Shown piece after piece: positions 1,639-32,040 of a stretch of 33,111 nucleotides of DNA. The notes beneath the pieces are model-generated. The model ran no database searches, was not told the origin of the DNA, and saw only the letters and a program-made list of their open reading frames with translations. Position numbers and translations under genes: made by a program. The DNA is from an uncultured Alphaproteobacteria bacterium (GTDB lineage: Bacteria > Pseudomonadota > Alphaproteobacteria > MPNO01 > UBA830). The stretch's first letter is position 1, and each line of letters opens with the position of its first letter. The stretch lies in assembly GCA_913047365.1 (NCBI GenBank), contig CAJWUK010000007.1, positions 1 through 33,111 on the forward strand, written 5' to 3'.

Positions 1639-2454
1639 ATGACAACAAACATGGAAAACAAGGTTGCTGCTATTACCGGTGGTTCTTCCGGTATTGGGCT
1701 GGCAACGGCGCAGGTTTTTCTGCGGACGGGGGCCAAGGTTGCTATTTGTGGTCGCAGCCAGGAACGCCTAGATGAAGCAGCAGAAGGCTTGGCAAGCATA
1801 TCGGGAAAAGAAAACGTCCTTGCTTACTCCTGCGACGTGTTGGACGAATCTGCCGTGGGAGGGTTTCAGGCGGCGGTCACCGAGCGGTTCGGCCGCTGCG
1901 ATGCCCTTGTCTGCAATGCCGGACAGGCGCGAGCGAGCTATTTTCACACCACCAGCGACCAGGACTGGCGGGACGAATTTGAACTGAAATTCTTCTCCGT
2001 GATCCGACCGGTTCGGGCTTTTGCTGATGCGCTTGAAGTATCGGGCGCCGGAGCGATTGTCTGCACCAGCGCCGGTCTCGCGCGTCGGCCGGAACCGTTT
2101 CTGATCGCGACCGGCGCAACGCGGGCCGGGCAATTAAACCTTCTGAAATCTTTGTCGATCGAATTCGCACCGCGAAACATTCGGGTCAATGCGGTATTAA
2201 TAGGATTGGTCGACTCCGGACAGTGGAGCCGCCGCTACGAAGCCGGTGAAGGCCCAGACGGCCGAGAAATTCCCGACGGCATGTCTAAAGAGGAGTGGTT
2301 CGCGGATCTGGCGAAAACGCGTCATATCCCGCTTGGGCGATTGGGAGAACCGGAGGAGGCGGCGAACGCAATTTTGTTTTTCGCATCTCCCATGTCTTCC
2401 TACATTACGGGAGAGACTATCGAGGTAGCAGGGGGGCAGGCACGCAATGTCTGA
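1639..2454 (+). CDS. SDR-family protein lacking the catalytic Tyr and Lys
   Basis: A Rossmann SDR of about 271 aa. The NAD(P)-binding motif TGGSSGIG and the structural motif CNAG (for NNAG) are intact, and the C-terminus has the usual PxxxSSYITGETIEVAGG ending. The catalytic YxxxK is not there: where YSATK is expected the sequence reads TGATR, so Tyr is Thr (about residue 158) and Lys is Arg (about 162). The upstream Ser (about 144, in CTSAG) is kept. The ORF track begins at a GTG at 1612. ATG 1639 is preferred because GGAGCGG lies about 10 bases upstream; ATG 1651 is also possible. The 3' end overlaps the next gene by 8 bases, indicating translational coupling. It may be a non-catalytic subunit or use an unusual mechanism. 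Confidence 0.9.
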   Translation: MTTNMENKVAAITGGSSGIGLATAQVFLRTGAKVAICGRSQERLDEAAEGLASISGKENVLAYSCDVLDESAVGGFQAAVTERFGRCDALVCNAGQARASYFHTTSDQDWRDEFELKFFSVIRPVRAFADALEVSGAGAIVCTSAGLARRPEPFLIATGATRAGQLNLLKSLSIEFAPRNIRVNAVLIGLVDSGQWSRRYEAGEGPDGREIPDGMSKEEWFADLAKTRHIPLGRLGEPEEAANAILFFASPMSSYITGETIEVAGGQARNV

Positions 2455-4105
2455 ACTGGTGACGGCCGGCGATGTTGCTGCCGCATTTCTGGAACGCTGT
2501 GGGGTCGAACATGCCTTCGGTGTTATCAGCATCCACAACATGCCGATCCTGGACGCTATTTCAAGGCGCAACAAGGTTACTTTTATCCCGGCCCGGTCCG
2601 AGGGCGGCGCCGTAAACATGGCCGATGCCAACGCGCGCGTGCGTGGCGGACTTGGCGTTGCGGTATCGAGCACGGGAACGGCTGCAGGAAACGCCTGTGG
2701 CGCGATTGTCGAAGCGATGACGGCGGGGACGCCGCTGCTACACCTGACCGGGCAGATCGATTCTCTACATCTGGATCGGCAGAAGGGATTTATCCATGAA
2801 GCGCCGGACCAACTCGGCATGCTCGGCGCTGCGGGCAAGGGCGCGTTCCGAGTCTGGTCCGCGGACGCTATGCTGGGCACCCTGCGGGAGGCTGTGAAGC
2901 TCGCTTTCACGCCGCCGATGGGACCGGTCAGTGTCGAGATAGCCATCGACGTACAGAAATCCAATACCGTCATGCCGGCCAGTATAGATCCGTTGCCGGT
3001 TCCGGAGTTGCCCCCGGGAGAAGATGCTGTCGATGCCCTGGCTGGCGCCCTGGCCGGCAAGAAGCGAGTGATGATGTGGCTGGGCGGCGGCGCCCGCCAT
3101 GCGGCCGACCCGGTGGCGCGTCTTGCAAATCTGGGCTTTGGTGTTGTGACCAGCGTTCAGGGCCGTGGTGTGTTGCCCGGCGACGATCAGATGTCGCTTG
3201 GGGCGTTCAATCTTCAGCCCGCAGTGGAAGAGCTTTACAAGACCTGCGATGCGATGCTGGTAGTCGGGTCACATCTGCGTTCGAATGAGACGCTTTCCTA
3301 TGCACTGTCTCTGCCGCAGCCCTTGTATCAGATCGATGCCGATCCGAAAGCGGAAGGCCGGTCCTATCCCGTCGACATGTTCGTCTGCGGGGACTCGGCG
3401 CTGACGCTGGAAATGCTGGCCGATAAGTTGAAGGCGAATTTTACGCCGGATGCCGGATTTAAAAGCGATATCCGGGAAGCGCGTGCCGCGGCTGAGGGTG
3501 GCATGCGAAAGGCGCTGGGGCCCTATAACGACGTTCTGGATGCCGTGCTCGAAACAGTGCCGCGCGATTTCGTCTGGGTACGGGATATCACGCTCTCCAA
3601 CACGATCTGGGGTAACCGCTTGCCACCGCTGGGTGGTCCCCGAGACGGGGTTCATGCCCTGGGCGGCGGGATCGGACAGGGGCTACCCATGGGTATCGGT
3701 GCGGCATTGGCCGCTCAGCGTGACGATCGCAAGACGCTGGTTCTGGCGGGTGATGGTGGGTTCGCTGTTACCTTGGGGGAACTTGCTACCGCCAAACAGG
3801 AAAATGCCGATATCGCTATTCTGTTGATGAATGACGGCGGTTACGGGGTCATAAAGAACATTGCCGATGCCCACTATAACGGCAATCGCGATTACACCGA
3901 CATTCTGGGCCCCGACTGGGGCATGCTTTGCGATTCCCTGAATATACCGCATTGGGGAGTGGCGGACGTGAAGGGCCTAGCTGAGATACTGGGACGGGCA
4001 TTCGATGCGGAAGGACCGGCGCTTGTAGAGGTGGATATGACGTCAATTGGGGATTTCGCCCAAGCCTTTGCCGGACCGCCGGCCAAAACCGGAGACGACG
4101 ACTGA
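2447..4105 (+). CDS. thiamine diphosphate-dependent enzyme (acetolactate synthase-like)
   Basis: This 552-aa protein has the three-domain architecture of the acetolactate synthase/benzoylformate decarboxylase group. The N-terminal PYR domain has the ThDP-activating Glu at about residue 52 (PARSEGGAVNMADANAR). A central Rossmann-like domain follows. The C-terminal PP domain has GDG at about 435-437, followed about 26 residues later by NDGGYG, the Mg-ThDP motif. Such enzymes decarboxylate 2-keto acids or join or split C-C bonds next to a carbonyl. The substrate cannot be assigned, and it is too divergent from biosynthetic IlvB to call it that. It overlaps the degenerate SDR upstream by 8 bases and the aspartate dehydrogenase downstream by 1 base, so the three are almost certainly one functional unit. 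Confidence 0.92.
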   Translation: MSELVTAGDVAAAFLERCGVEHAFGVISIHNMPILDAISRRNKVTFIPARSEGGAVNMADANARVRGGLGVAVSSTGTAAGNACGAIVEAMTAGTPLLHLTGQIDSLHLDRQKGFIHEAPDQLGMLGAAGKGAFRVWSADAMLGTLREAVKLAFTPPMGPVSVEIAIDVQKSNTVMPASIDPLPVPELPPGEDAVDALAGALAGKKRVMMWLGGGARHAADPVARLANLGFGVVTSVQGRGVLPGDDQMSLGAFNLQPAVEELYKTCDAMLVVGSHLRSNETLSYALSLPQPLYQIDADPKAEGRSYPVDMFVCGDSALTLEMLADKLKANFTPDAGFKSDIREARAAAEGGMRKALGPYNDVLDAVLETVPRDFVWVRDITLSNTIWGNRLPPLGGPRDGVHALGGGIGQGLPMGIGAALAAQRDDRKTLVLAGDGGFAVTLGELATAKQENADIAILLMNDGGYGVIKNIADAHYNGNRDYTDILGPDWGMLCDSLNIPHWGVADVKGLAEILGRAFDAEGPALVEVDMTSIGDFAQAFAGPPAKTGDDD

Positions 4106-4908
4106 TGAATGTTTTGCTGATCGGCTATGGCGCCATCGCCCAGGAGGTCCTGAAACATATTGGGCCAGACGGCGACGCAAGGATCACGGCGATCCTAGTG
4201 CGGACGGGCCGGGTGGAAGAGGTAAGAGCCGCGGTTTCGGACAGGGGAATAGAGGTGGTGTCGTCTTTCGACGATCTCACGGTATCGCCTAAACTGGTTG
4301 CTGAATGCGCTGGACATAATGGGGTGCGGGAATACGGCGCCGACGCGTTACGCCGCGGCATGGATTTTCTGGTGATTTCCATTGGCGTGCTAGCAGACAC
4401 TGCTCTCTATGAAGAACTTCTGGCGGCTGCGAAAGAGGGCGGGGCAAAACTGGTGCTCGCCGCCGGGGCCGTTGCCGGCGCTGATGCGTTGGCCGCCGCC
4501 CGTGTCGGCGGACTGTCGAAGGTCACCTATACATCCCGGAAGCCTCCCGGCGCCTGGAAGGGAACGCCGGCGGAAGAGGTATGCGATCTCGATGCGTTGG
4601 AAACCGAAACGGCGTTGTATGAAGGCGGCGCGGACGAAGCAGCGACGCGCTATCCGCAGAATGCTAATGTAGCCGCTACCATTGCCCTGGCGGGGGCAGG
4701 GTTCGGCGACACCAAGGTCCGGCTCGTGGCTGATCCTGAAGCCGGCGGAAATATCCACCAGGTCCATGCAGAAGGGATGTTTGGCGCTGTCGATATCGAA
4801 ATCCGGGGCAAGCCGCTGCCGGATAATCCCAAGACGTCAACTCTTGCCGCACATTCGGTGGTTGCGGAAATCCGTCGCCGCGCCGCGCCGGTGGAGATCG
4901 GCGGCTAG
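4105..4908 (+). CDS. nadX: L-aspartate dehydrogenase (NadX/AspDH family)
   Basis: A 267-aa NAD(P)-dependent dehydrogenase. The N-terminal Rossmann motif is LIGYGAIAQEV. Family hallmarks follow: ECAGHNGVREYG, LAAGAVAGADALAAAR, YTSRKPPGAWKGTPAE, and NIHQVHAEG containing the conserved His at about residue 218. The family oxidises L-aspartate to iminoaspartate, which becomes oxaloacetate plus ammonia, or runs the reverse reductive amination. In organisms that lack NadB it supplies NAD synthesis. No nadA or nadC is adjacent. The TGATG overlap ties it instead to a ThDP enzyme, an SDR and a hydrolase, so a catabolic role in aspartate or related amino-acid turnover is more likely (inference). It is the last gene of the operon. 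Confidence 0.9.
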   Translation: MNVLLIGYGAIAQEVLKHIGPDGDARITAILVRTGRVEEVRAAVSDRGIEVVSSFDDLTVSPKLVAECAGHNGVREYGADALRRGMDFLVISIGVLADTALYEELLAAAKEGGAKLVLAAGAVAGADALAAARVGGLSKVTYTSRKPPGAWKGTPAEEVCDLDALETETALYEGGADEAATRYPQNANVAATIALAGAGFGDTKVRLVADPEAGGNIHQVHAEGMFGAVDIEIRGKPLPDNPKTSTLAAHSVVAEIRRRAAPVEIGG

Positions 4909-5745: not shown

Positions 5746-5866
5746 GACTCAGCGGGGCGTTGCTCCCCGTCCCTGCAACTTCTTGGTATCTGACTACACA
5801 GCATTAATGCGACGGAGGCCCGGGGTATCCATTCACAGCGGAGGGGGATTGCGGTAAACCGCGCCA

Positions 5867-7546
5867 ATGGCACCTGTTTTCATAAAACTCGGGCTGGATG
5901 CGAAGCAGGCAATGATGCGGGGTGCCGACCTTCTGGCGGATTCCGTCGCGCTAACACTGGGGCCCGCAGGACGTTGCGTGTTGATTGAGGCCCAGGGCGG
6001 CGGGCTACGGGCGCCGCGGATCACCAAGGACGGTGTCACCGTGGCCGACGCGCTGGAGGTCGACGGGCGGTTGGAGAAGATGGGTCTGCGGCTGATGCGG
6101 CGAGCCGCTCAGCGCATAGGCGAAGATATCGGCGACGGCACCACCACCACCATCGTACTGGCCCGGGCGCTGGCGGCAGAGGGGTTGAAAGCGATCGCTA
6201 CCGGGATCGATCCAATGTCGTTGCGTCGCGAACTCGATGCAGGTGTCGCTGACGTTACGTCGGAATTGCGGAGGATGGCGAAACCGGTGCAGGGTCGTTC
6301 GGATTTCGAGCGGGTCGCGACCATTTCCGCCAACGGCGAAGAATTCCTCGGCAGAATGATTGCCGACGCGTTTGATACGGTCGGCGCGGACGGCGTTGTT
6401 TCCGTCGAAGGTGGCGAAGCGCTGGCGACCACGTGGGAGTGCGTGACTGGCCTGCAATGGGATGGCGGGTACGTTTCCCCCTATTTCATGACCGATCCGA
6501 TCACCACTGAATGCCGTTACGACAATCCGCTGATCCTGCTGACCGAACACATATTGGAAGATCATACGTCGCTGCTAAAAGTGATGGAAACCGCGGTGCA
6601 GGCGCGTCGGCCACTGTTTATCGTCGCCGAGGCGGTAAAGGGCGAGGCACTGCAGACCTTGACCGTGAATAAGGTGCGCAAAGGACTGCGAGTGGTGGCG
6701 GGGAAAGGACCGCTGTTTGGTGAACGCCGCCGCGCTATGCTGGAAGACACCGCGACTGTGATCGGCGGGGCGCTGATATCCGAACATCGGGGTGACAATC
6801 TGGAAATTATCGACCCGGCGGCGCTCGGCGGCGCGGAGCGCATTGTACTGACCAAAGACCGGACTACCATCATAGGTGGTGCCGGAAAACAAGTGAATAT
6901 CGACAGGCGTGTCGAGGGCATCCGGGCTGAACAAGGACTTGAGAGCAATACGCCGTTTCAGGAAAAGAACTTGCGCGAACGCCTGGCACGGCTGACCGGC
7001 GGGGTAGTTGTCGTCCGCGCCGGTGGCGGTAGCAAGATGGAGATCACCGAACGCCGGGACCGCGCGGAGGATGCCGCCGGCGCGGTGCGGGCTGCGGCAA
7101 TAGACGGTATTTTGCCTGGTGGCGGGTCGTCCTATATCCATGCAGCCCGCGAGATTTCAGAAGGGAACACGACGGAGACACGGGCGGCAATGCGTATTCT
7201 TCGAACGGCGCTGAACGCACCTGCGGCGCAGATCGCCGCCAACGCTGGGTATGACGGACGCATGGTCACGGCGCGATTGTCGGAAGAGGGGAAAGTCAAT
7301 CGCGGCTTCAACGCGCTGACCGGAGACTTCACCGATTTGATTAAGGCCGGCGTAATTGATCCAGCCCGGGTGGCGATATCGGCGCTGGAAGCCGCCATGT
7401 CCGTGGCGGGACTGTTTCTGACCATTGAAACCGTTATCGCAAAACCGCCACCCCCGCCGCGCCCCTCACGGGCCGATGACATCCCCTTCGGGCCGGAAGC
7501 CAAGGATATGACTGCCGAGGAAGCGGGCGAGTTCGGGCTGGTCTAG
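5867..7546 (+). CDS. divergent GroEL-type chaperonin paralog, no adjacent groES
   Basis: A full-length 559-aa group I chaperonin. ATPase elements are present: TLGPAGR, TKDGVTVAD, GDGTTTTIVLA (about residues 89-99), the Asp in RAEDAAGAVRAA that corresponds to GroEL D398, GILPGGG, and GVIDPARV (about D498). The apical domain keeps GYVSPYF, equivalent to the GroEL Y199/Y203/F204 substrate and GroES-binding patch. LVVN of helix I has become LTVN, so V263 is replaced by Thr. The C-terminal GGM tail is missing; the protein ends EEAGEFGLV. An in-frame TAA at 5855 rules out a start upstream of it, so ATG 5867 is used; the nearest SD, GGAGGGGGA, is rather far away (about 18 bases). No CIRCE element and no groES were found. 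It is likely a specialised second copy rather than the housekeeping GroEL. Confidence 0.93.
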   Translation: MAPVFIKLGLDAKQAMMRGADLLADSVALTLGPAGRCVLIEAQGGGLRAPRITKDGVTVADALEVDGRLEKMGLRLMRRAAQRIGEDIGDGTTTTIVLARALAAEGLKAIATGIDPMSLRRELDAGVADVTSELRRMAKPVQGRSDFERVATISANGEEFLGRMIADAFDTVGADGVVSVEGGEALATTWECVTGLQWDGGYVSPYFMTDPITTECRYDNPLILLTEHILEDHTSLLKVMETAVQARRPLFIVAEAVKGEALQTLTVNKVRKGLRVVAGKGPLFGERRRAMLEDTATVIGGALISEHRGDNLEIIDPAALGGAERIVLTKDRTTIIGGAGKQVNIDRRVEGIRAEQGLESNTPFQEKNLRERLARLTGGVVVVRAGGGSKMEITERRDRAEDAAGAVRAAAIDGILPGGGSSYIHAAREISEGNTTETRAAMRILRTALNAPAAQIAANAGYDGRMVTARLSEEGKVNRGFNALTGDFTDLIKAGVIDPARVAISALEAAMSVAGLFLTIETVIAKPPPPPRPSRADDIPFGPEAKDMTAEEAGEFGLV

Positions 7547-7702: not shown

Positions 7703-7840
7703 ATGCAAGCTCTCTTTCTTTTGAGATTGTCGTTGAAATGCAGACAGAAATATCAGACCCATCCTGACAGCCGCCTGTCGCTATTGATGCAAGACGCGAA
7801 ATTACGGGCCCTTGCGCCCTTGCCCCCGATGGGTCATTGA
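7703..7840 (+). CDS. candidate 45-aa leader ORF ahead of DMT permease
   Basis: This ORF is too short for the ORF track. ATG 7703 is preceded by GAGGAGGG at an ideal distance of about 5 bases, the best ribosome binding site in this spacer. The frame reads MQALFLLRLSLKCRQKY and continues to PPMGH, then stops at TGA 7838-7840. That TGA overlaps TTG 7837, the upstream possible start of the permease. The peptide matches no family I know. It could be a coupling leader or a chance ORF. The rest of the 7547-7845 spacer shows no other gene. Confidence 0.35.
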   Translation: MQALFLLRLSLKCRQKYQTHPDSRLSLLMQDAKLRALAPLPPMGH

Positions 7841-7845
7841 GAGGG

Positions 7846-8766
7846 ATGCCCGCCAGTGAGAGCACTGTCGAAGACAAACCGCTGTCGCCGATCGCCGTGC
7901 TTTGGCTTCGGCTACCGCCGAACCTGCGCGGCATACTATGGCTCAGCCTGGGCGCGTTTCTGTTCGCGGTAGTGGATGTATTCGTCAAATCCCTCGGCGG
8001 GCGCTTCGATCCGCTGCAGATTTCCTTTTTTCGCTACGGCTGTGGGCTGATCTTCCTGATCCCCGTGTTCATCCGCTTCGGCGCGTCTAACATGAAGACC
8101 GAGCGCCTGCCGCTGCACATCCTGCGCATGTGCCTGGCCTTTGCCGCGCAGCTTGGCATCTTCATCACCGTTATTCACATGCCGCTGGCGGATGCCACCG
8201 CCTTCATGTTCTCCAAGCCGCTGTTCACTACCCTAGTGGCCGTGTTCATCCTGCACGAGGTTGTCAGTGGCCGACGCTGGGCGGCGACGATCGTCGGATT
8301 CGTCGGCGTGCTGGTGCTGGTTCGGCCGGGGGCAGGGACGATCGATCCCTACGCCTTCGTCGCTATCTTTTCCGCCCTGACCTTCGCCATCGCAAACGTG
8401 CTTATCCGCAAAATGTCAACGACGGAGCCGACGCCTCGCATCCTGTTCTACTATCACATTGGCGGTGTGCTGCTGTTTATAGGACCCGCGGCCTGGGTCT
8501 GGACCATGCCGGTCGGCATCGAATGGGTGAAACTGATCGGCATTGGCGGACTGACCACCCTGGGTATTTTCGGCTTCATGCGTGCCTTCGCAGTAGGAGA
8601 GGCCAATGCCGTTGGCCCGGCGGAAAACGTCCGCCTGATCTATGCCGCGCTGTTCGGGTACTTTCTGTTCAGCGAAATACCGACCATCTGGACCTTCGCC
8701 GGCGCACTGATCATTGTCGCCAGCACAGTCTATATTGCCCGGGCGGAGGCGCGCGGCAAGGAATAA
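7846..8766 (+). CDS. DMT-superfamily (EamA) permease, copy 1
   Basis: An inner-membrane protein of about 306 aa with two EamA repeats and about ten hydrophobic helices. Repeat one begins NLRGILWLSLGAFLFAVVDV. The second half contains LFYYHIGGVLLFIGP and ENVRLIYAALFGYFLFSEIP, the latter a signature-like segment of the family. DMT/EamA proteins export or import small metabolites such as amino acids and nucleosides; specificity cannot be predicted. The ORF track starts at TTG 7837, which overlaps the stop of a 45-codon ORF; ATG 7846 is the more conventional choice. Copy 2 at 17288 shares the RLPxNLR opening, the TTEPT...FYY segment and the C-terminal half. A 10-bp perfect inverted repeat follows the stop. 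Confidence 0.92.
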   Translation: MPASESTVEDKPLSPIAVLWLRLPPNLRGILWLSLGAFLFAVVDVFVKSLGGRFDPLQISFFRYGCGLIFLIPVFIRFGASNMKTERLPLHILRMCLAFAAQLGIFITVIHMPLADATAFMFSKPLFTTLVAVFILHEVVSGRRWAATIVGFVGVLVLVRPGAGTIDPYAFVAIFSALTFAIANVLIRKMSTTEPTPRILFYYHIGGVLLFIGPAAWVWTMPVGIEWVKLIGIGGLTTLGIFGFMRAFAVGEANAVGPAENVRLIYAALFGYFLFSEIPTIWTFAGALIIVASTVYIARAEARGKE

Positions 8767-9224: not shown

Positions 9225-9977
9225 ATGACAGAAACGGCTATTTTCGAACCGGGCGGCTATCGCTATGTGCGGGGACCATTCCAGTATTCCGGCGGGGTTG
9301 CAGCGGAGGAGGGGTATGCGATTGAGCGTGTCCGCTTTCAGACTCCTGTGCCTCTGGAAGAAGGGTTCAGGCGGATCGAGGCGCATCTGGATTCCATCGG
9401 GCGCCCTTACGTGGCGTTTGCCGCCTGCGAGCTTCGCTCGCCCGAGCCGTTTTCCGAGCAGGGTTTTATCGATTTCAACCGCATCTATGTCGGCACGCTG
9501 GAAAGCTGGGGAATATTCGAAAACGACGAAAACCCGGTGGCGCGCTCCAACGTATGCCCCGAAATCGGTGGGCCATCTGAGCCCAGCTTCCATGCGTTTA
9601 GCTATACCGTCCCTGCGGCGGCCTCGCCGCAGAGCTTCGTCATTGCCGGATCGGCCGAAGCGCCGGAAGGCGGTGCTACATATCAGGAACGCATCATCCG
9701 CTTGGGCGACACTTCTGACGAGGCGATGGGAGAAAAAGCGGACTACGTTATCGGAACCATGGAAAAGCGGATGGCAGCGTTGGACGTCAGCTGGGCGCAG
9801 GCCACCGTGACCCACACCTATTCCATCCACAACATCCACCCCTTGCTGCCAGACCAGTTGGTCGCGCGCGGGGCCGCTGCAGCGGGCCTCACCTGGGTTT
9901 ATGCGCGCCCGCCTGTTGTGGGGCTTGAATACGAAATGGATGTGCGCGGGGTACACACCGAACGGGTTCTGGTCTGA
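9225..9977 (+). CDS. RidA-fold protein, possibly CnbZ-type aminomuconate deaminase
   Basis: A 250-aa protein. The C-terminal half follows a RidA/YjgF pattern: FVIAGSAEAPEGG, then IIRLGDTSDEAM, a helix ending MAALDVSWAQATVTHTYSIH, and PPVVGLEYEMDVRGV as the last strand. The N-terminal half (YVRGPFQYSGGVAAE, FAACELRSPEPF, ARSNVCPEIG) is conserved-looking and resembles what I recall of proteins named 2-amino-5-chloromuconate deaminase CnbZ. That name is from memory and needs a search. RidA proteins hydrolyse reactive imines or enamines, and CnbZ deaminates an aminomuconate during aminophenol degradation. ATG 9225 has GAAAGGAAA upstream. A cytochrome b561 fragment and a RidA gene follow within 20 bases, so this is a small operon. 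Confidence 0.6.
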   Translation: MTETAIFEPGGYRYVRGPFQYSGGVAAEEGYAIERVRFQTPVPLEEGFRRIEAHLDSIGRPYVAFAACELRSPEPFSEQGFIDFNRIYVGTLESWGIFENDENPVARSNVCPEIGGPSEPSFHAFSYTVPAAASPQSFVIAGSAEAPEGGATYQERIIRLGDTSDEAMGEKADYVIGTMEKRMAALDVSWAQATVTHTYSIHNIHPLLPDQLVARGAAAAGLTWVYARPPVVGLEYEMDVRGVHTERVLV

Positions 9978-9996
9978 CCGGTTCAGGAACACACCT

Positions 9997-10236
9997 ATGA
10001 GCCTGCCGCAACGGATCCGCGCCTACCACATCACCCTGATAGGGGCGCCGATTACCGGCGTTCTGCTGCCGGCCGGCGCCGAGAGAGGTCATGTGTCCTG
10101 GGAAGAATTGCACGAAACCTTTTCCAACTTGGTGATAATGCTGGTCATCCTGCATGCGTTGTATCTGCTTGCTTTTCGGCGGCCGCTCGCCCGGTTGATG
10201 CTTCGCCGGAACCGGTGGAAACCGGAAAAAGAATGA
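9997..10236 (+). pseudogene. cytochrome b561-like C-terminal fragment
   Basis: From ATG 9997 the frame encodes 79 aa. Segments such as GAPITGVLLPAG, WEELHETFSNLVIMLVILHALYLL and a basic end (RRNRWKPEKE) match the last third of bacterial cytochrome b561 proteins: the PLTGW-like loop, the LHE heme-side His and the final LH-containing helix. The first two or three transmembrane helices and their heme ligands are absent. Upstream sequence belongs to the RidA-like gene. It starts 20 bases after that gene's stop, and its own stop overlaps the start of ridA (ATGA), so it is still within a translated operon. It is either a deletion relic kept because of coupling or a minimal membrane peptide. Confidence 0.55.
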
Positions 10237-10631
10237 CGCGGCGGAATATCCGAACCGACAAACCTTCGGAAGCGCGCAACACCCACAGCGCTGCCGTTGC
10301 CGCGTCGGGAAACTTCGTCTTTACCTCCGGCATCACGCCACGAGATGAAGACGGTCAACTGGTTCGCCCGGGCGATATGGCGGCCCAGATACGGCAAACG
10401 CTGTCAAACTTGCGTGATGTGCTGCAGGCCGCGGAAACGGATTTCGGTTCGGTGGTGAAGTTCACCGTCTTTGTCACCGACATAGAAGCCTTCATGGCGG
10501 CACGGCGGGGAGCGGATACCGGCCTCGACGCCGCAATGGAAGCCGCGCCCGCCCTCTCGTTGGTGGAAGTTTCCCGGCTGGCCCATCCTGACATTATGGT
10601 GGAGATAGAGGCGACGGCCCAAACCGACTGA
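10233..10631 (+). CDS. RidA-family protein without the canonical substrate Arg
   Basis: A 132-aa member of the RidA/YjgF/YER057c family: NTHSAAVAASGNFVFTSG, QIRQTLSNLRDVLQAA, KFTVFVTDIEAFMAAR, and LVEVSRLAHPDIMVEIEATA. Archetypal RidA deaminases carry an Arg in the R-S-x-V-E-V strand that holds the substrate carboxylate. Here that position reads ALSLVEV, with Leu instead of Arg, so it belongs with the Rid subfamilies whose imine hydrolase activity is doubtful. ATG 10233 is used because it overlaps the upstream stop (ATGA); the ORF track's GTG 10215 has less support. It shares an operon with another RidA-like protein. Confidence 0.88.
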   Translation: MTRRNIRTDKPSEARNTHSAAVAASGNFVFTSGITPRDEDGQLVRPGDMAAQIRQTLSNLRDVLQAAETDFGSVVKFTVFVTDIEAFMAARRGADTGLDAAMEAAPALSLVEVSRLAHPDIMVEIEATAQTD

Positions 10632-10739
10632 GGAAGCGTAAATTTTCCCTTGGTCCGAAAGACAGGTCTTCTGTATGGATTTCCTTCTCAAGCTCTATAA
10701 TGCTGCGGTTTACCAGTGACGTTTGTGAGGGAGAGAGTC

Positions 10740-10817
10740 ATGTCGGGTAGGGTTTTTAGAACGCAGACAGTAGTGTGCGTTCTGATAGCGTTGCCACACG
10801 TTGCGCAACCGGAGTAA
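10740..10817 (+). CDS. 25-codon signal-peptide-like ORF in the ridA-aldolase spacer
   Basis: ATG 10740 follows GAGGGAGAGAG at a good SD distance. A TATAAT hexamer lies at 10696-10701, though no convincing -35 accompanies it. The peptide, MSGRVFRTQTVVCVLIALPH then VAQPE, looks like a Sec signal peptide (basic N-region, hydrophobic core) that stops where the mature protein should begin. It may be the fossil 5' end of an exported protein gene or a leader peptide. The rest of the 10632-10934 spacer holds no other gene. Just after the ORF's core lies the perfect palindrome GTTGCGCAAC (10800-10809). Confidence 0.4.
   Translation: MSGRVFRTQTVVCVLIALPHVAQPE
10758..10783. repeat. 8-bp inverted repeat AGAACGCA/TGCGTTCT
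   Basis: The arms AGAACGCA (10758-10765) and TGCGTTCT (10776-10783) flank a 10-nt loop inside the 25-codon ORF. In mRNA this could be a hairpin downstream of the ribosome binding site, or in DNA a dimeric regulator site. No family assignment is possible. Confidence 0.5.
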
Positions 10818-10934
10818 AAGCCCAGAAATGGTTTTTGACTGGAACCGGGGTCCCCGTCAGGTAAAATTGCAGGCCAACACTACTACCGGGCCGGGAACCA
10901 GTTATTTCATCGGCTCCATCCCGGAGAATGAGTC

Positions 10935-11729
10935 ATGAATGTCGTCGCTATGCCGTCCGTCGCCGTCCCGTCCATGAAAGACCGGGTGCCAGAAGCCGAA
11001 TGGGAGACGCGGGTGCAACTGGCGGCTCTTTACCGGATCGCCGCCTATATGGGGCTGGAAGATCTGACAGCGAACCATTTTGCCGCGCGCGTACCCGATG
11101 CGCCGCGCCATTTTCTGATCAAGCCAACTGCGCTGCTGTTTTCCGAAGTAACCGCTTCCAACCTGTGCTGCTACGACGAAAACAGGGAACTGGTGTACAA
11201 AACCGAACATACCTCCAGCCCGGCGGGGCCCCGAATTCATGGGTCGGTGTTGGACGCGCGTCCGGACGTGATGGCGACGATTCATCTGCATACCACGGCG
11301 GGCGCCGCGGTCTCCGCCATGGATTGCGGGTTGAAATTCATTTCCCAGTCATCCATGCGCTTTGCTGGCCAGGTGGCGTACCACCGCTACGAAGGCCTGG
11401 TGCACAAGGACGAGGAGGGTCCGCGTCTCGTAAACGATCTGGGCGACAAACATGTGATGTTCCTCGAAAATCACGGGACGTTGATCACCGGCCGGTCGAT
11501 TCCGGAATGTTTCCTGCTGCATCATTACCTGGAGCGGTCCTGCGAAATTCAGGTCGCTGCCATGTCGTCCGGCGCCGTGCTGAAGGAACCGCCAATGGAG
11601 GAATGCCTGAAAATGGCACAGGGCTGGGCAGAAAACCGCGCCCCCCCGGCAAACGAGATGGTCGGCGAACGGGATTTTCAGGCAATGGTGCGCAAGGTCG
11701 AGGCGATCGACCCGGGATTTCGGGTATAG
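10935..11729 (+). CDS. class II aldolase/adducin-family protein
   Basis: A 264-aa protein of the fuculose-1-phosphate aldolase/adducin fold. Visible features are RIAAYMGLEDLTANHFAAR (the N-terminal helix and D-x-x-x-N-H turn), FLIKPTALLFSEVTASN, the metal ligands in ATIHLHTTAG (HxH), the LENHGTL turn, and a third His in FLLHHYLERSCEIQ. Class II members use Zn2+ or another divalent metal for retro-aldol cleavage or decarboxylation of hydroxy-acid substrates; the exact substrate is unknown. The ATG at 10935 follows CCGGAGAATGAG, an adequate SD. Longer overlapping ORFs in this stretch are shadows. It is monocistronic and converges on the DUF924 gene. Confidence 0.9.
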   Translation: MNVVAMPSVAVPSMKDRVPEAEWETRVQLAALYRIAAYMGLEDLTANHFAARVPDAPRHFLIKPTALLFSEVTASNLCCYDENRELVYKTEHTSSPAGPRIHGSVLDARPDVMATIHLHTTAGAAVSAMDCGLKFISQSSMRFAGQVAYHRYEGLVHKDEEGPRLVNDLGDKHVMFLENHGTLITGRSIPECFLLHHYLERSCEIQVAAMSSGAVLKEPPMEECLKMAQGWAENRAPPANEMVGERDFQAMVRKVEAIDPGFRV

Positions 11730-15629: not shown

Positions 15630-16934
15630 CTATGCGCTCATCAGGTCGCGCCACGCGGCATACTGCGCACGTAGCGGCAATTCGCTGGTACCGACCTCAC
15701 CGATTTCGCCTCCATCGTCATGGGCGATGTCGTGATCCAGTCCCCGCGAAAGATAAATCCATTCCGAGTCCGCCTCGTCCAACGCCTGCTGAATACCGTT
15801 GAACATGGCGATGTCATCGGTCGTGATCTGGGATGCCGGCGAATTAAGGGCGCTGAGAAACCGGACACTGCGCTGATACATCTCTTCCGGCGCGCCTCGG
15901 AGGCGGAAACACATGGAATGCACGATGGTGCAGTCCACGGCGACCGGCTGCAAAAGACGCATCTGTTGATGCTTTGGGTTCAGGATCAGGTTGGGGTAGA
16001 CCAGATGGTTGAAAGTATCCCACCCCATGATGTTTTCGGCGCGGTTCTCCCCATAGGCGCCGATCATCGCTGATCGATAGCTGGAGTTGATGGGGTCTTC
16101 GTCGGTTGTTTGGGTTATCGGCCCTTCCTTGTAAAAGCCACCCATATAGGAATGACCGCCGGGGAAACCGTGAATTTCCACCTTATCCATCATCTCGAGC
16201 GGCAGGCCGTTGCCCTTGAACATCTGCAACGCGTGATCTTCTGCGCCATCCGCCAGATCATCCGCGACGGCCTGGGCGCTATCGACCGACGACGCATGGA
16301 CGATGGAGGCATGCATAAGGTCGTTGGCATTCTCCATATGGAGTTTCCAGTTGCCGCGATAGCGCTGGCGAAACCCGCCGCCGGTCATCTCAATTTCTCC
16401 GGACGGCGCTCGGTCGACCATATTGTCAATTGCCCGCGTCATGGGGCCGAGATAGTCGGCAAGGGAAGGCCCGTCCGTGGCTCGGCTGGCGAAGACAAAG
16501 CCGCGATAGCTCTCTACATGCGGAACCCGATCCAGGCCAAGCGCCGGGTCCTTCGGATCCAGCTTGCCATTGTAGCCCTTGCCGTGCGGAATACCGATCA
16601 GGGATCCGTCGGTTGAGAATGCCCAGCCGTGATACGGGCAGACGAACCGTTTTTTTGATCCGCGCCGCGCAGAACAGACTTTCATGCCGCGATGGGTGCA
16701 CCGGTTTGCAAAAACGTGAATCTCGTCATCGGTATGGCGGGCGACAATGACCGGCCGGTCGCCCATATGGGCGGTAACGAACGCACCAGCTCCCTCCAGT
16801 TGGCTTTCGTGGGCGACGTATAGCCAGGCGTGGCCGTAGATTCGTTCCATTTCGGCCGCAAAAATGTCCGGGTCTGTGTAGACTCTTCGGTGAACGCGGC
16901 CTTCGGGCGCCAACATTTCGAATGGTTCTGTCAT
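15630..16934 (-). CDS. Rieske ring-hydroxylating oxygenase, alpha subunit
   Basis: A 434-aa terminal oxygenase. The Rieske [2Fe-2S] ligands are complete: CTHRGMKVCSARRG then FVCPYHGW (CxH...CxxH). The mononuclear iron site reads ENANDLMHASIVH, giving the bridging Asp and two His. The C-terminal domain matches the RHO alpha-subunit catalytic fold. These enzymes hydroxylate or O/N-demethylate aromatic and related compounds using electrons from a reductase. No reductase, ferredoxin or beta subunit is present in the window, so it must borrow electrons from elsewhere. It is the first gene of the Rieske-VOC operon. Confidence 0.94.
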   Translation of the reverse strand: MTEPFEMLAPEGRVHRRVYTDPDIFAAEMERIYGHAWLYVAHESQLEGAGAFVTAHMGDRPVIVARHTDDEIHVFANRCTHRGMKVCSARRGSKKRFVCPYHGWAFSTDGSLIGIPHGKGYNGKLDPKDPALGLDRVPHVESYRGFVFASRATDGPSLADYLGPMTRAIDNMVDRAPSGEIEMTGGGFRQRYRGNWKLHMENANDLMHASIVHASSVDSAQAVADDLADGAEDHALQMFKGNGLPLEMMDKVEIHGFPGGHSYMGGFYKEGPITQTTDEDPINSSYRSAMIGAYGENRAENIMGWDTFNHLVYPNLILNPKHQQMRLLQPVAVDCTIVHSMCFRLRGAPEEMYQRSVRFLSALNSPASQITTDDIAMFNGIQQALDEADSEWIYLSRGLDHDIAHDDGGEIGEVGTSELPLRAQYAAWRDLMSA

Positions 16935-18178: not shown

Positions 18179-18266
18179 GCGTCGGAGAATTTTACAAATT
18201 TCGACTGGATTGCGCTGGCATATCCTCCCACTTGATCCACGCATCACGCCGCGCGACATTCCCTAT

Positions 18267-19370
18267 ATGGCATCGGTAAGAAAATTCACTCGCAATAAGC
18301 TGGCCATCGGGCTGTTCGGGTCGAACTGCGATGGAGGTCTCGCCTGTTCCACCTTTCCGGAGCGTTGGGAAGCAAGCTGGGAAAACTGCCGCGACCTGGC
18401 AGTCCGGGCAGACGGTGCCGGCCTCGACTTCATGCTGCCGCTGGGGCGTTGGATCGGCTATGGCGGCGACACCAACCACAACGGATCCAATTTTGAGACG
18501 ATTGCCTGGGCCTGCGGCATCCTCGCGGCGACGCGCAACATAATGGCGTTCGGCACCGTGCATGTGACCGCGCATTCACCCGCAGTGGCGGCGAAGCAGA
18601 TGGTGACGGCGGATCACATCGGCGGCGGCAGGTTCGGACTCAACATCGTGTGCGGCTGGTACCAGAAGGAATTCGACATGCTAGGCGTGGACCTGGACGA
18701 GCATGAACGCCGCTACGACCTAGGTCAGGAATGGATAGATCTGGTGACGCGTATCTGGTCTGAAGACGAACCATTCGATTTTAACGGCGAATTTTTCCAG
18801 ACGAGAGGAACGGTTCTGGGTCCGAAGCCAGTAAACCGCGAACGGCCCATGCTGGCCTGTGCGGGTACGTCCGGCCGTGGTCGTGAATTCGCCGTAAAAA
18901 ACGCCGATATGCTTTTCCACACCTTCTACGATTTCGACAAGTTTCGTGAAGATTGCTCCAGCCTGCGCCAGGCAGGGCGGGATATCGGCCGTGATGTGGG
19001 CCTCTTCACGAATATCGGAATTGTCTGCCGCCCGACGCGTAAGGAAGCGGAGGAATACCATCACTATTACGCGGTCGAACACGCGGATACGGAAGCGTGC
19101 CGCATCATGATGGTCGAACGCGGCATAGATACGGATCAGATTTCAGAGGAAGACCGCCGCGGGTTCCATCTTCGTGCCGCGACGGCCAACGGTGCAACCC
19201 CCGTGGTTGGCGACCCCGACAGCGTGGCCGAGCAGTTGATGCAGATGTCCGACGCCGGGTGCGACGCCGTTGCGGTGGGTTTGCCGAATTACTTGAACGA
19301 TCTGCCCATCCTGGTGGAAGAGGTGTTGCCGCGTCTGGCATCGGAGGGCTACCGTACGACGGTCAGTTGA
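18267..19370 (+). CDS. LLM-class flavin-dependent monooxygenase
   Basis: A luciferase-like TIM-barrel protein of about 367 aa (386 from the TTG used in the track). ATG 18267 (MASVRKFTRNKLAIGLFGSN) begins just before the first beta strand. Family features are GLDFMLPLGRW, FETIAWACGILAATRNI, HIGGGRFGLNIVCGWYQKE, HERRYDLGQEWIDLVTRIW and the substrate loop FNGEFFQTRG. The pattern is closest to the SsuD/RutA/DmoA group, which uses FMNH2 and O2 to cleave C-S, C-N or ring bonds. Use of F420 cannot be excluded, since cofGH and npdG are in the same window, but the motifs favour FMN. The 88 bases upstream contain no obvious SD. Confidence 0.9.
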   Translation: MASVRKFTRNKLAIGLFGSNCDGGLACSTFPERWEASWENCRDLAVRADGAGLDFMLPLGRWIGYGGDTNHNGSNFETIAWACGILAATRNIMAFGTVHVTAHSPAVAAKQMVTADHIGGGRFGLNIVCGWYQKEFDMLGVDLDEHERRYDLGQEWIDLVTRIWSEDEPFDFNGEFFQTRGTVLGPKPVNRERPMLACAGTSGRGREFAVKNADMLFHTFYDFDKFREDCSSLRQAGRDIGRDVGLFTNIGIVCRPTRKEAEEYHHYYAVEHADTEACRIMMVERGIDTDQISEEDRRGFHLRAATANGATPVVGDPDSVAEQLMQMSDAGCDAVAVGLPNYLNDLPILVEEVLPRLASEGYRTTVS

Positions 19371-25161: not shown

Positions 25162-26001
25162 CTAGCTTGCGGCTTCCAGCGCTATCAGACCCATGCCCGT
25201 GGTCATGGGGGCGTAATAGTGACGGTGTACCTGTCTGACCGGGCCTTCGATGGCGCCACGCATGGTTAGCCACATGATCAGCTCGACCGCCTCGGCGCCC
25301 GCTTCTTCCATGATCTGTTGATGGGTCATTGCCGTGAGAGCCGCCGGATCGGACTCGATCTTGTCGAGAAAATCGTTATCGAATTGGGAATTCAGGTAGC
25401 CGAACCGCGCGCCGTTCAACTGGTGGGACATACCGCCGGTGCCCAAGATAACGACTTTCCTATCTTTGCCGTAGCTTTCAGCAGCCCGGCGAATTGCCTG
25501 GCCCAGCTTCCAGCAACGCGCGGCCGTCGGCAGCGGATGCTGGATAACGTTGACCGCTACCGGCACCACTTGGACAGGCCAGCCGTCATCGTGGTCCCAG
25601 CACAGATGCATGGGGACCATAAATCCGTGCTCTACTTCCATTTCCTGGCACACGGTGATGTCGAATTCGTCGTAAACCAAAGAGTTGCAGAGGTGCCAGG
25701 AGAAGTCTGCATCTCCCGGAAAATCGGGTAGGGGGCGGCGTCCCCAACCTTCGTCGCCGACCGGATAGGTCTCGGCCGCGCCCACGGCGAAGGTCGGATA
25801 TTTGTCGAAAAAGAAATCACATCCATGATCGTTATAGACCACGATGGCGATGTCAGGCTGGATCTCTTTCAGCCATTCCTTAACCGGACCGTACCCGTCG
25901 AACAGGGGTTTCCAATCCGGTTCTTCCTGACGGCCCTGGTCGTAGGCGACCCCGATGGACGGAACGTGGGAGGTGCCGATACCGGCAACAATTTTTGCCA
26001 T
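25162..26001 (-). CDS. ligB: protocatechuate 4,5-dioxygenase beta subunit (LigB type)
   Basis: This 279-aa class III extradiol dioxygenase has the normal LigB length. Iron ligands are in place: His12 in GIGTSHVPSIG, His59 in VVYNDHGCDFF, and the Glu in the EAGAEAVELIMW region. The catalytic-type His is in GTGGMSHQLNG. With LigA it opens protocatechuate between C4 and C5 to 4-carboxy-2-hydroxymuconate semialdehyde; gallate or a substituted catechol could also be the substrate. A textbook SD (AGGAGGAAAG) precedes ATG 26001. It lies 13 bases after ligA and is followed by the pobA relic. The downstream ligC, ligI and ligJ genes are not in the window. Confidence 0.93.
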   Translation of the reverse strand: MAKIVAGIGTSHVPSIGVAYDQGRQEEPDWKPLFDGYGPVKEWLKEIQPDIAIVVYNDHGCDFFFDKYPTFAVGAAETYPVGDEGWGRRPLPDFPGDADFSWHLCNSLVYDEFDITVCQEMEVEHGFMVPMHLCWDHDDGWPVQVVPVAVNVIQHPLPTAARCWKLGQAIRRAAESYGKDRKVVILGTGGMSHQLNGARFGYLNSQFDNDFLDKIESDPAALTAMTHQQIMEEAGAEAVELIMWLTMRGAIEGPVRQVHRHYYAPMTTGMGLIALEAAS

Positions 26002-26014
26002 ATTTGCTTTCCTC

Positions 26015-26377
26015 CTACCGCGCGCCCGAGGCGTTCCGGGTGTCGAGAAATTGCTCGTATGTCTGTCCGCGCTGGTGCGCGCCGATCTGATAAAGGCCTT
26101 GGCCTATGACCGCGCCTATTTTCATGATCATGTATATGTTGCCGCCATACTCATCCATGATCGCTCGCCAGTCGCGATCGCGGATAAGCTGCTTCTCGAC
26201 CTCGGTTAGGTCCGACGCAGCCAGGAATGCTTCTTCGTTTTCCTTAAAGGCATCCCGGTTTTGCGGTTTGCAGAGCGACATCGCGAATTTGTTCAGCCGG
26301 TACCCGCGGCGGGTTTCTTCGTCTGTGAAGACCTTGGTGTTTGCTATTGGACGGGATTTATCGACTTGTTCTGCCAT
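26015..26377 (-). CDS. ligA: protocatechuate 4,5-dioxygenase alpha subunit (LigA type)
   Basis: A 120-aa small helical subunit: RRGYRLNKFAMSLCKPQNRD, FKENEEAFLAAS, then LIRDRDWRAIMDEYGGNIYM, and KIGAVIGQGLYQIGAH. These are the conserved blocks of LigA, which caps the LigB active site. GGAGTAAGG lies about 14 bases before ATG 26377. It is separate from LigB, not fused as in gallate dioxygenases such as DesB. It precedes ligB by 13 bases; the 107-base spacer towards the SDR gene contains an A/T-centred hairpin (26463-26485). Confidence 0.93.
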   Translation of the reverse strand: MAEQVDKSRPIANTKVFTDEETRRGYRLNKFAMSLCKPQNRDAFKENEEAFLAASDLTEVEKQLIRDRDWRAIMDEYGGNIYMIMKIGAVIGQGLYQIGAHQRGQTYEQFLDTRNASGAR

Positions 26378-29562: not shown

Positions 29563-29697
29563 AATTAAATAATCTGTGCTGCTCTTGACCCCCGCCGGGA
29601 TTCACCGTTTGCTGTAACAGCATCAAGGTCGCGTATTGCAACGCCAATGCGGTCGGCGGCAACCCTGTAATTTTAACCGTTGATACTATCGACCCGG

Positions 29698-32040
29698 ATG
29701 ACTTCGACCGACAGTTTGAGAGAAGCCATGACATCTGCACGCCTGCTGCGTGACGAGGGTTTCGGTGATCTTGTTACCTACAGCCCCAAGGTATTCATCC
29801 CGCTGACCAAACTGTGCCGCGATGTCTGTCACTATTGCACCTTTGCTCATCCGCCACGACGCGGAGAACGGGCATTCATGACGGTGGAAGAAATTCTGGA
29901 CATCGCGCGGGAAGGGGCGAAGGCCGGCTGCACGGAAGCGTTGTTCACCCTGGGCGACAAGCCGGAGCTTCGCTACCGCATGGTGCGGGAGGAACTTGCC
30001 GCGCTCGGGCATGAGACCACGATTGCTTACTTGGCGGAGATGGCGGGACTGGTTCTGAATGAAACCGGGCTACTACCACATCTGAATCCAGGCGTCATGA
30101 CGGCGGAGGACATTGCGCTATTGAGGCCAGTGTCGGCCTCGATGGGTCTGATGCTGGAAGGGGTGTCGCCTGTGCTTATGAAGCGCGGCGGGCCGCATTA
30201 TGGATCGCCTGACAAGGACCCGGTGGCGCGTTTGGAAACTATTCGCCTCGCCGGAGAGGCGAAGGTGCCATTTACCACCGGGATTTTGATTGGCATCGGG
30301 GAGACGCCGGACGAGCGCCGCGCTGCGCTAGAAAATATCGCGGAACTACAAGCGCGCTATGGCCACATCCAGGAAATCATTATTCAGAACTTTCGCGCCA
30401 AGACCGGCACTCGCATGGGCGGCGCGCCGGAACCCGGTCTTGACGATCTCTGTCAAACGATTGCCGATGCGCGGTCTGTGTTCGGGGCGGAAATGTCCAT
30501 TCAGGCACCGCCAAACCTCAGTGGTGATGATTTCCCCGCCCTTCTGGATGCCGGAATCAACGACTGGGGCGGCGTGTCGCCGGTGACGCCGGATCACATA
30601 AATCCGGAGGCCGCGTGGCCGGAACGGGAACGTCTGCGTGTTGGCACGGAAAGCGGCGGCAAAGTGCTGGCGGCCCGCCTACCGGTCTATTCACGTTATA
30701 TCTTCGAAGATGGCTGGTTGGACCATGCGGTGCGTCCGGCGGTACTGCGCGTCATGGATCAGGACGGTCTCGCCCGGGACGATTTCTGGGCGCCGGGTGT
30801 GCCGGATGTTGATCCGGTATTTCCCGCTGTAAGTGGCGGCAAGGCGCGGGCACTTATGGGTGTATTGTCGCGAGCCGCGGCGGGGACGCATCTGGAAGAA
30901 ACGGACCTGGCATTACTGTTTAGTGCACGTGGAGAGGCATTTGGCGAGGTTACAGCCGCCGCCGACGAGCTGCGAAAAAAAATGTGCGGCGATACTATCA
31001 CCTACGCGGTAAACCGAAATATAAATTACACAAATGTGTGCGGATATCGCTGCGGGTTCTGTGCCTTCTCAAAGGGGCGGCTGAGCGCAAATCTGCGCGG
31101 GTCGCCCTACGATCTCGCCCTGGAAGAAATTTCCCGGCGGGCCACAGAGGCTTGGGAACGGGGTGCGACGGAAGTCTGCCTCCAGGGCGGCATTCACCCC
31201 GACTATACCGGCGATACCTATCTGTCGATCGTCCGAGTAGTGAAAGACGCTGCTCCTGAAATGCATATCCATGCGTTTTCGCCTTTGGAGATTTCACAGG
31301 GGGCCACGACCCTGGGTCTGACGGTAGAGGCCTATCTGGGGCGCCTGAAAGACGCGGGGCTAGGATCGCTGCCCGGTACTGCGGCTGAAATTCTGGATGA
31401 CGATGTCCGCGCGATCCTGTGCGCTGACAAACTGTCCACCGATGAATGGCTGGCGGTGATGGAAACCGCCCACGGGATTGGGTTGCGGTCGACCGCGACG
31501 ATAATGTTCGGTCATCTGGAACGTCCGGTTCATCTGGCTCGGCACCTCCTGCGGGTGCGTTGTCTTCAGGAACGGACTGGAGGATTTACGGAATTCGTGC
31601 CGTTGCCCTTTGTCCACATGGAAGCACCAATTTATCTGAAGGGCTTGGCGCGGCGCGGCCCCACCTTTCGTGAAGCGATCCTGATGCACGCGGTGGCGCG
31701 GCTGGCGCTGTACCCCGTCATTGCCAATATCCAAACAAGCTGGGTCAAGCTGGGCCGGGACGGTGCGGCGGCCTGCCTTCGTGCCGGCGCCAGTGATCTG
31801 GGCGGCACACTGATGAACGAATCCATCTCCCGGGCAGCAGGCGCATCCCACGGACAGGAATTCGACCCAGTCGGCATAGGAGATTTTATCCGAGGGTTGG
31901 GGCGTTCGCCGCGTCAGAGGTCCACCCTTTACAACAATGTTGTCGATGAACGCCGGGCGGCGGGCATGGCTGCGCCCAAACTGCAGCCCATGATCCAAAC
32001 ACCCGCGAACAAATATGCCCATGGGGAAGCTGCTGAATGA
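29698..32040 (+). CDS. cofGH: FO synthase, fused CofG-CofH (FbiC type)
   Basis: A protein of about 780 aa with two radical-SAM domains in FbiC order. The CofG half has CRDVCHYC (C40, C44, C47), preceded by VFIPLTKL. The CofH half has CGYRCGFC (C448, C452, C455), preceded by NRNINYTNV. Together they make 7,8-didemethyl-8-hydroxy-5-deazariboflavin (FO), the F420 chromophore, from tyrosine and a pyrimidine precursor using SAM. Both [4Fe-4S] motifs and the following barrel motifs are intact. ATG 29698 is chosen over the track's 29680, although its SD is weak. Its stop overlaps npdG (ATGA). F420 is patchy in proteobacteria and usually horizontally acquired. cofC, cofD and cofE are not in the window. 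Confidence 0.95.
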   Translation: MTSTDSLREAMTSARLLRDEGFGDLVTYSPKVFIPLTKLCRDVCHYCTFAHPPRRGERAFMTVEEILDIAREGAKAGCTEALFTLGDKPELRYRMVREELAALGHETTIAYLAEMAGLVLNETGLLPHLNPGVMTAEDIALLRPVSASMGLMLEGVSPVLMKRGGPHYGSPDKDPVARLETIRLAGEAKVPFTTGILIGIGETPDERRAALENIAELQARYGHIQEIIIQNFRAKTGTRMGGAPEPGLDDLCQTIADARSVFGAEMSIQAPPNLSGDDFPALLDAGINDWGGVSPVTPDHINPEAAWPERERLRVGTESGGKVLAARLPVYSRYIFEDGWLDHAVRPAVLRVMDQDGLARDDFWAPGVPDVDPVFPAVSGGKARALMGVLSRAAAGTHLEETDLALLFSARGEAFGEVTAAADELRKKMCGDTITYAVNRNINYTNVCGYRCGFCAFSKGRLSANLRGSPYDLALEEISRRATEAWERGATEVCLQGGIHPDYTGDTYLSIVRVVKDAAPEMHIHAFSPLEISQGATTLGLTVEAYLGRLKDAGLGSLPGTAAEILDDDVRAILCADKLSTDEWLAVMETAHGIGLRSTATIMFGHLERPVHLARHLLRVRCLQERTGGFTEFVPLPFVHMEAPIYLKGLARRGPTFREAILMHAVARLALYPVIANIQTSWVKLGRDGAAACLRAGASDLGGTLMNESISRAAGASHGQEFDPVGIGDFIRGLGRSPRQRSTLYNNVVDERRAAGMAAPKLQPMIQTPANKYAHGEAAE

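Follow-up and report, generated by a model that had tools for sequence, protein, structure and literature searches.

A divergent stand-alone GroEL paralogue with a conserved non-GGM tail, encoded in a predicted aromatic catabolic cluster of an uncultured alphaproteobacterium

A groEL gene without a neighbouring groES raises the question of whether it is the only chaperonin gene of its genome or an extra copy with a function of its own. Such a gene is present at positions 5867–7546 of the plus strand in the window, i.e., the whole 33,111-nucleotide stretch of DNA analysed here, which comes from a marine bacterium. Its reading frame starts with an ATG at 5867 and closes with a stop codon at 7546, giving a protein of 559 amino acids. 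The Cpn60_TCP1 profile matches the whole protein (220 bits against a cut-off of 34), and this full-length domain, together with D52, D87, and D398, places it among the type I chaperonins; the identities to its orthologues mark it as a divergent GroEL paralogue. The earlier note described the ATPase motifs as intact, and D52, D87, T89–T91, D398, and D495 (E. coli numbering) are all retained. Its identity is 40% to E. coli GroEL and 44–47% to the canonical GroELs of family relatives (45% for one of them). It scores 529.5 bits against the TIGR02348 equivalog model and thus misses the cut-off of 582.1, and it passes several broader GroEL subfamily models. The AlphaFold2 model has a mean pLDDT of 80, falling below 50 in the tail (residues 522–559), and its best PDB matches are GroEL structures, with TM scores of about 0.77–0.81 to open-form chains.

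The gene is the sole Cpn60 in its own assembly (3.03 Mb, 342 contigs, 83.7% complete), and a Cpn10 search of the same assembly finds none, in agreement with the absence of a neighbouring groES in the earlier note. The absence of CIRCE, likewise claimed there, also holds, as the window contains no CIRCE-like site even with up to 6 mismatches allowed, whereas the groES genes of relatives carry a CIRCE-like operator with 2–3 mismatches. No CIRCE is found at the gene in the divergent groEL loci of relatives. At this completeness, one Cpn60 and zero Cpn10 are what a genome with a single groEL, and with groES at another locus or missing, would show, and the earlier note had named a sole groEL as the outcome that would overturn its proposal. 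However, three relatives (G002, G003, and G004) each hold an orthologue (67–71%) together with a canonical GroEL (46–47% to the window protein), and groES in the relatives is confined to the canonical loci. The canonical locus of the family has the order TrkA, aminotransferase, Hfq, HflX, groES, groEL, and inositol-monophosphatase-like protein, where the names TrkA, aminotransferase, and inositol-monophosphatase-like are presumptive, being read off the sequences with no family search behind them. In the genome under study, the homologous contig C179 carries the TrkA gene (87%) and ends at base 6 inside the aminotransferase gene. As the contig breaks off just before groESL, the canonical operon falls in a gap of the assembly, from which the orthologue of HflX is likewise missing. 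Since the relatives hold both copies and C179 stops at the groESL locus, the window gene is a paralogue; its sole status is true of the assembly only and is explained by the contig break. The sole-groEL reading is rejected on these grounds, and we consider it very improbable. There is good support for a divergent stand-alone paralogue, as the earlier note proposed, and against the housekeeping GroEL, whose upstream groES, CIRCE operator, and GGM tail the window gene lacks. It is also not an orthologue of the family groESL copy, as G002, G003, and G004 each have the two copies, which fall in separate clades.

Orthologues are present in five of seven family genomes including that of the window, and the other four copies are 64–71% identical to the window protein. 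Related copies are found in five of six genomes of a second family of the same order (f3), of which three are intact, one is split across contigs, and one is frameshifted; none was seen in 14 genomes of the order's other two families. No further members were found among 399 phylum-sampled genomes or, by profile search, among 385 class-sampled genomes, and plasmids gave no close relative, the best match being 47%. The GroEL tree suggested by the earlier note was run with the chaperonins of relatives. Without the tails, the window group and the f3 group form one clade separate from the canonical GroELs (support 100/98). The tree sets this clade outside the GroELs of the order; its branches are long, and the AU test allows an origin inside (p 0.40), which leaves room for a recent duplication in the order as well as for an older origin or a transfer.

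Long branches, together with the frameshifted f3 copy, could also mean a decaying duplicate heading toward a pseudogene. In contrast, the reading frames are intact in all five family copies, the tail and the start region are conserved, and dN/dS is low: 0.057–0.129 in the window group, about 0.2 in f3, and 0.04–0.06 in canonical GroEL, all rough values since synonymous sites are near saturation in some pairs. Judged by these ratios, the window-type orthologues are under purifying selection. The dN/dS of 0.06–0.13 rules out a pseudogene for the window lineage, and decay is scarcely credible as an explanation of the gene. The frameshift itself lies near residue 420 of the f3-type GroEL of G015 (L045, G015:C21, ~9260–10972), and the f3-type gene of G013 is divided between contigs near the corresponding position; the cause may be assembly error or decay.

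The GGM tail was described as gone in the earlier note, and the window GroEL indeed terminates in ...RADDIPFGPEAKDMTAEEAGEFGLV, with a different conserved tail in its place. The replacement tail comprises residues 522–559 (positions 7430–7543, plus strand), ends in IPFGPEAKDMTAEEAGEFGLV, and is conserved in all five family copies, where IPFGPEAKDMTAEEAGGFGLV takes the position of the GGM repeat. The tail DDIPFGPEAKDMTAEEAGGFGLV is nearly invariant within the family, while the identity of the body is just 64–71%, and its dN/dS is at most about 0.06. In the AlphaFold2 model, it is of low confidence and looks disordered. The pattern FGPxxxDxxAxExxGxGL[VA] is common to the window group and the f3 sister lineage, a character left out of the tree that joins them. 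In a GroEL-type ring, such a tail would line the floor of the cavity and bias the chaperonin toward a restricted client set.

At the apical GroES-contact positions 199, 203, 204, 234, 237, 259, 263, and 264, six of eight residues are identical to those of E. coli (Y199, Y203, F204, L234, L259, and V264), and the changes are L237M and V263T. The apical helix reported as LTVN instead of LVVN is thus present (V263T with V264 kept), but it is no fixed signature: residues 263/264 are TV, AV, TL, VT, IT, or TT across the eight copies and never the canonical VV, and LTVN was dropped as a signature for this reason. R197, the partner of E386 in an inter-subunit contact of E. coli GroEL, has given way to Gly in each of the five window-type copies, and in the f3 copies to Gln or Glu. 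The window protein would form a GroEL-type ring with altered allostery, which would hydrolyse ATP. The housekeeping GroES would cap this ring, though perhaps less tightly, since no copy has VV at the V263/V264 contact.

The f3 sister lineage differs in its catalytic residues. The f3 GroELs (L036:6539–8191, L037:9187–10839, and L038:7534–9186) have Ala, Thr, or Ser at D398 and Arg at T89, and remain constrained though D398 is lost. In E. coli GroEL, D398A greatly reduces ATP hydrolysis, and the f3 proteins lacking D398 are possibly non-hydrolysing chaperonins. Their genes are part of an operon with the order catechol 2,3-dioxygenase, hydrolase, hydrolase, GroEL, dehydrogenase, and DUF1330, in which groEL is flanked by gaps of 50 and 19 bp, and several f3 genomes retain this arrangement. 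No orthologous client is common to the neighbourhoods of the window and of f3, which have just weakly similar alpha/beta hydrolases (24%) between them.

These residues bear on a role as a holdase or scaffold that works without GroES, binding clients but not encapsulating them, with ATP hydrolysis lost in f3. The V263/V264 positions, which contact both GroES and substrate, are altered in all eight copies (TT occurs in f3), the R197–E386 contact is lost, and the f3 copies, in spite of their substitutions at D398 (A, T, or S) and at T89 (R), still show a dN/dS of about 0.2. On the other hand, the window copy keeps Y199, Y203, F204, L234, L259, and V264 (L237 being Met) together with the full catalytic set, and relatives have a canonical GroES available. 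We regard a GroES-independent holdase as unlikely. A broader proposal, that the two families of this one alphaproteobacterial order hold a new type I chaperonin subfamily for ring-cleavage pathways, in which the fixed tail would be a client selector and the D398-less branch an ATP-binding, non-hydrolysing one-shot cage or holdase, is speculative and given a small chance.

A second private feature lies directly before the start codon. The element TTGCGGTAAACC... (family form TTGCGSTAMACC; positions 5849–5866, plus strand) is common to all five window-type copies (including the upstream regions L064–L067), among which 55% of positions from −20 to 0 are invariant, as against 0–10% from −150 to −40. 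It has two occurrences in the whole 3.0-Mb genome, which is not above a reversed control pattern. Near the ATG, the window-type copies show no clear Shine–Dalgarno sequence, and a scan for sigma-70-type promoters around the gene gave nothing above chance on the plus strand. The element may be a private promoter or operator, and possibly represents the −10 region of the gene's own promoter with a leaderless or non-Shine–Dalgarno start. Expression of the gene would then come from its own non-heat-shock promoter. The element travels with the gene in G002 despite a different neighbourhood there.

In the window, the gene belongs to a run of genes on the plus strand, named by family matches. The run begins with a PcaD-like alpha/beta hydrolase (57–554), whose 5' part is cut by the contig start, followed by an IclR-family regulator that is PcaR/PcaU/PobR-like, under that model's cut-off (554–1489), a short-chain dehydrogenase of PRK07062 type (1612–2454), a thiamine-diphosphate enzyme of PRK07064 type (2447–4105), an aspartate dehydrogenase-like protein (4105–4908), and an AhpD/CMD-family peroxidase-related protein, TIGR01926 (5119–5745). 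Downstream of groEL are an EamA (DMT) transporter (7837–8766), which by synteny is a conserved partner of CnbZ, a CnbZ-type 2-aminomuconate deaminase, NF049982 (9225–9977; 377 bits against a cut-off of 220), a Rid-family (L-PSP) enamine/imine deaminase-like protein (10215–10631), and a class II aldolase/adducin-type protein (10935–11729). The AhpD-like protein and the transporter are the flanking genes that the earlier note had recognised. Beyond the aldolase are VOC proteins, an enolase-superfamily protein, and the alpha subunit of a Rieske ring-hydroxylating oxygenase (15630–16934, minus strand), which by family match and synteny is within the same conserved block. By these assignments, the window GroEL sits in a conserved aromatic-amine-type (2-aminomuconate-type) catabolic cluster. 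The same contig also carries a luciferase-like monooxygenase gene (18210–19370), LigA/LigB-type extradiol dioxygenase genes (25162–26377), and one ORF (29680–32040) with two radical-SAM stretches and a CofH C-terminal domain, which suggests an FbiC-type FO synthase of F420 biosynthesis.

G003 and G005 keep the catabolic block, and G004 keeps the half of it on the EamA side. Four of the five window-type copies have the EamA–CnbZ pair on one side and an aspartate dehydrogenase or AhpD gene on the other. The orthologue of G002 (L032, G002:C144) is flanked by a chemotaxis receptor and a taurine-type ABC ATPase in place of the catabolic cluster. CnbZ is common in genomes of the order without a window-type GroEL, no GroEL adjoins CnbZ in the other families, and the CnbZ gene of f3 adjoins an EamA gene. 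Moreover, plasmid pNK84 of Caballeronia sp. NK8 (L161) has the hydrolase–IclR–SDR–TPP–AspDH core together with Rieske, cupin, and ALDH genes and no groEL. Because CnbZ and the Caballeronia core occur without groEL, the chaperonin is an addition in the window lineage, and for the same reason none of the cluster enzymes needs a window-type GroEL in general.

The reading that we prefer, at about an even chance, is that of an accessory GroEL which works beside the housekeeping CIRCE-groESL, borrows its GroES, and serves restricted clients, perhaps the neighbouring catabolic enzymes. The client set would most likely include at least one enzyme of the surrounding aromatic (2-aminomuconate-type) cluster. 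The private conserved tail, the private upstream element, the recurrent aromatic catabolic setting, and purifying selection favour specialisation, whereas the G002 orthologue outside the catabolic cluster and the homologous Caballeronia operon working without groEL speak against it. The specialised chaperonin of the earlier note is thus upheld as a divergent stand-alone paralogue, and its restriction to one client or one condition is plausible, although the loss of the catabolic neighbourhood in G002 counts against it. Compared with the housekeeping copy, the window GroEL probably has a narrower range of client proteins.

The synteny around the gene may be simply inherited, and the same locus could then encode a general accessory chaperonin for a growth condition or stress, such as oxidative stress or starvation, with the catabolic genes as mere neighbours. 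The upstream element, which the gene retains in the other neighbourhood of G002, agrees with this, adjacency is weak evidence where a neighbourhood is conserved as a whole, and an AhpD-like neighbour is present beside three of five copies. However, the f3 sister lineage independently has its place in the catechol 2,3-dioxygenase operon, where the gaps around groEL are very short, the G003 orthologue has no AhpD neighbour, and the promoter scan gave no evidence of a stress-type promoter. A general accessory role is possible, if rather doubtful. The link to oxidative stress through AhpD was set aside as weak, as this neighbour is absent in G003 and nothing else points to such stress.

Neither the purpose of extra GroELs nor that of the GroEL tail is settled, and a paralogue that exchanged the GGM repeat for a conserved tail, together with a D398-less sister under selection, is a natural experiment on the tail and on ATP hydrolysis. 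If the catabolic enzymes are truly served by the accessory GroEL, pathway-dedicated chaperonins would extend past di-iron monooxygenases, which would be relevant when such pathways are expressed in a heterologous host. Searches of the literature for a GroEL in meta-cleavage clusters gave nothing pertinent.

Among known systems, the housekeeping GroEL (TIGR02348; CIRCE-groESL) shares with the window copy the full-length fold, the ATP-site residues, and most of the apical hydrophobic residues. In contrast, the window copy has neither groES nor CIRCE, has lost R197, and carries a conserved non-GGM tail. Stand-alone groEL genes account for 834 of 5,658 (14.7%), and the stand-alone GroEL2 of M. xanthus requires the single GroES (PMC5406781). 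Non-GGM, atypical tails are known in GroEL paralogues, for which novel functions are supposed (PMC5904260, PMC11978752).

A precedent for the accessory reading is given by the GroEL-like proteins of di-iron monooxygenase operons, where smoABCD enables growth on alkanes only if the dehydrogenase and groEL genes that flank it are moved along with it (PMC11057499). For MmoG, shared use of the endogenous GroES has been suggested (PMC9324122). MmoG, MimG, BmoG, and Smo-GroEL resemble the window protein as stand-alone divergent GroELs in catabolic clusters, without a groES of their own and proposed as dedicated folding helpers (PMC11057499, PMC9324122). However, the window GroEL has no di-iron monooxygenase nearby: no hydroxylase (PF02332) was found among the scanned window proteins, while one adjoins the GroEL-like gene of L039 (L039:4857–10863, G053), which lies directly behind a di-iron monooxygenase and its coupling protein. 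The L039 protein has H203, M204, Q234, R237, and E264, and by its residues and linkage is an MmoG/MimG-type chaperonin that has lost the apical GroES-binding residues, which the window GroEL keeps. The two are 34% identical and are not sisters in a quick tree, in which the L039 row is very long-branched. Membership of the window GroEL in the MmoG/MimG type is ruled out by linkage and tree.

The Myxococcus GroEL2, the rhizobial Cpn60s, and mycobacterial GroEL1 are similar in being extra groEL copies without an adjacent groES. Unlike these, the window type has a tail of fixed sequence, not a pattern-less or His-rich one, and it recurs in aromatic catabolic clusters. A stand-alone extra GroEL is thus a known kind of gene; new in the window type are the tail of fixed sequence, the repeated occurrence in a catabolic setting, and the sister lineage without D398.
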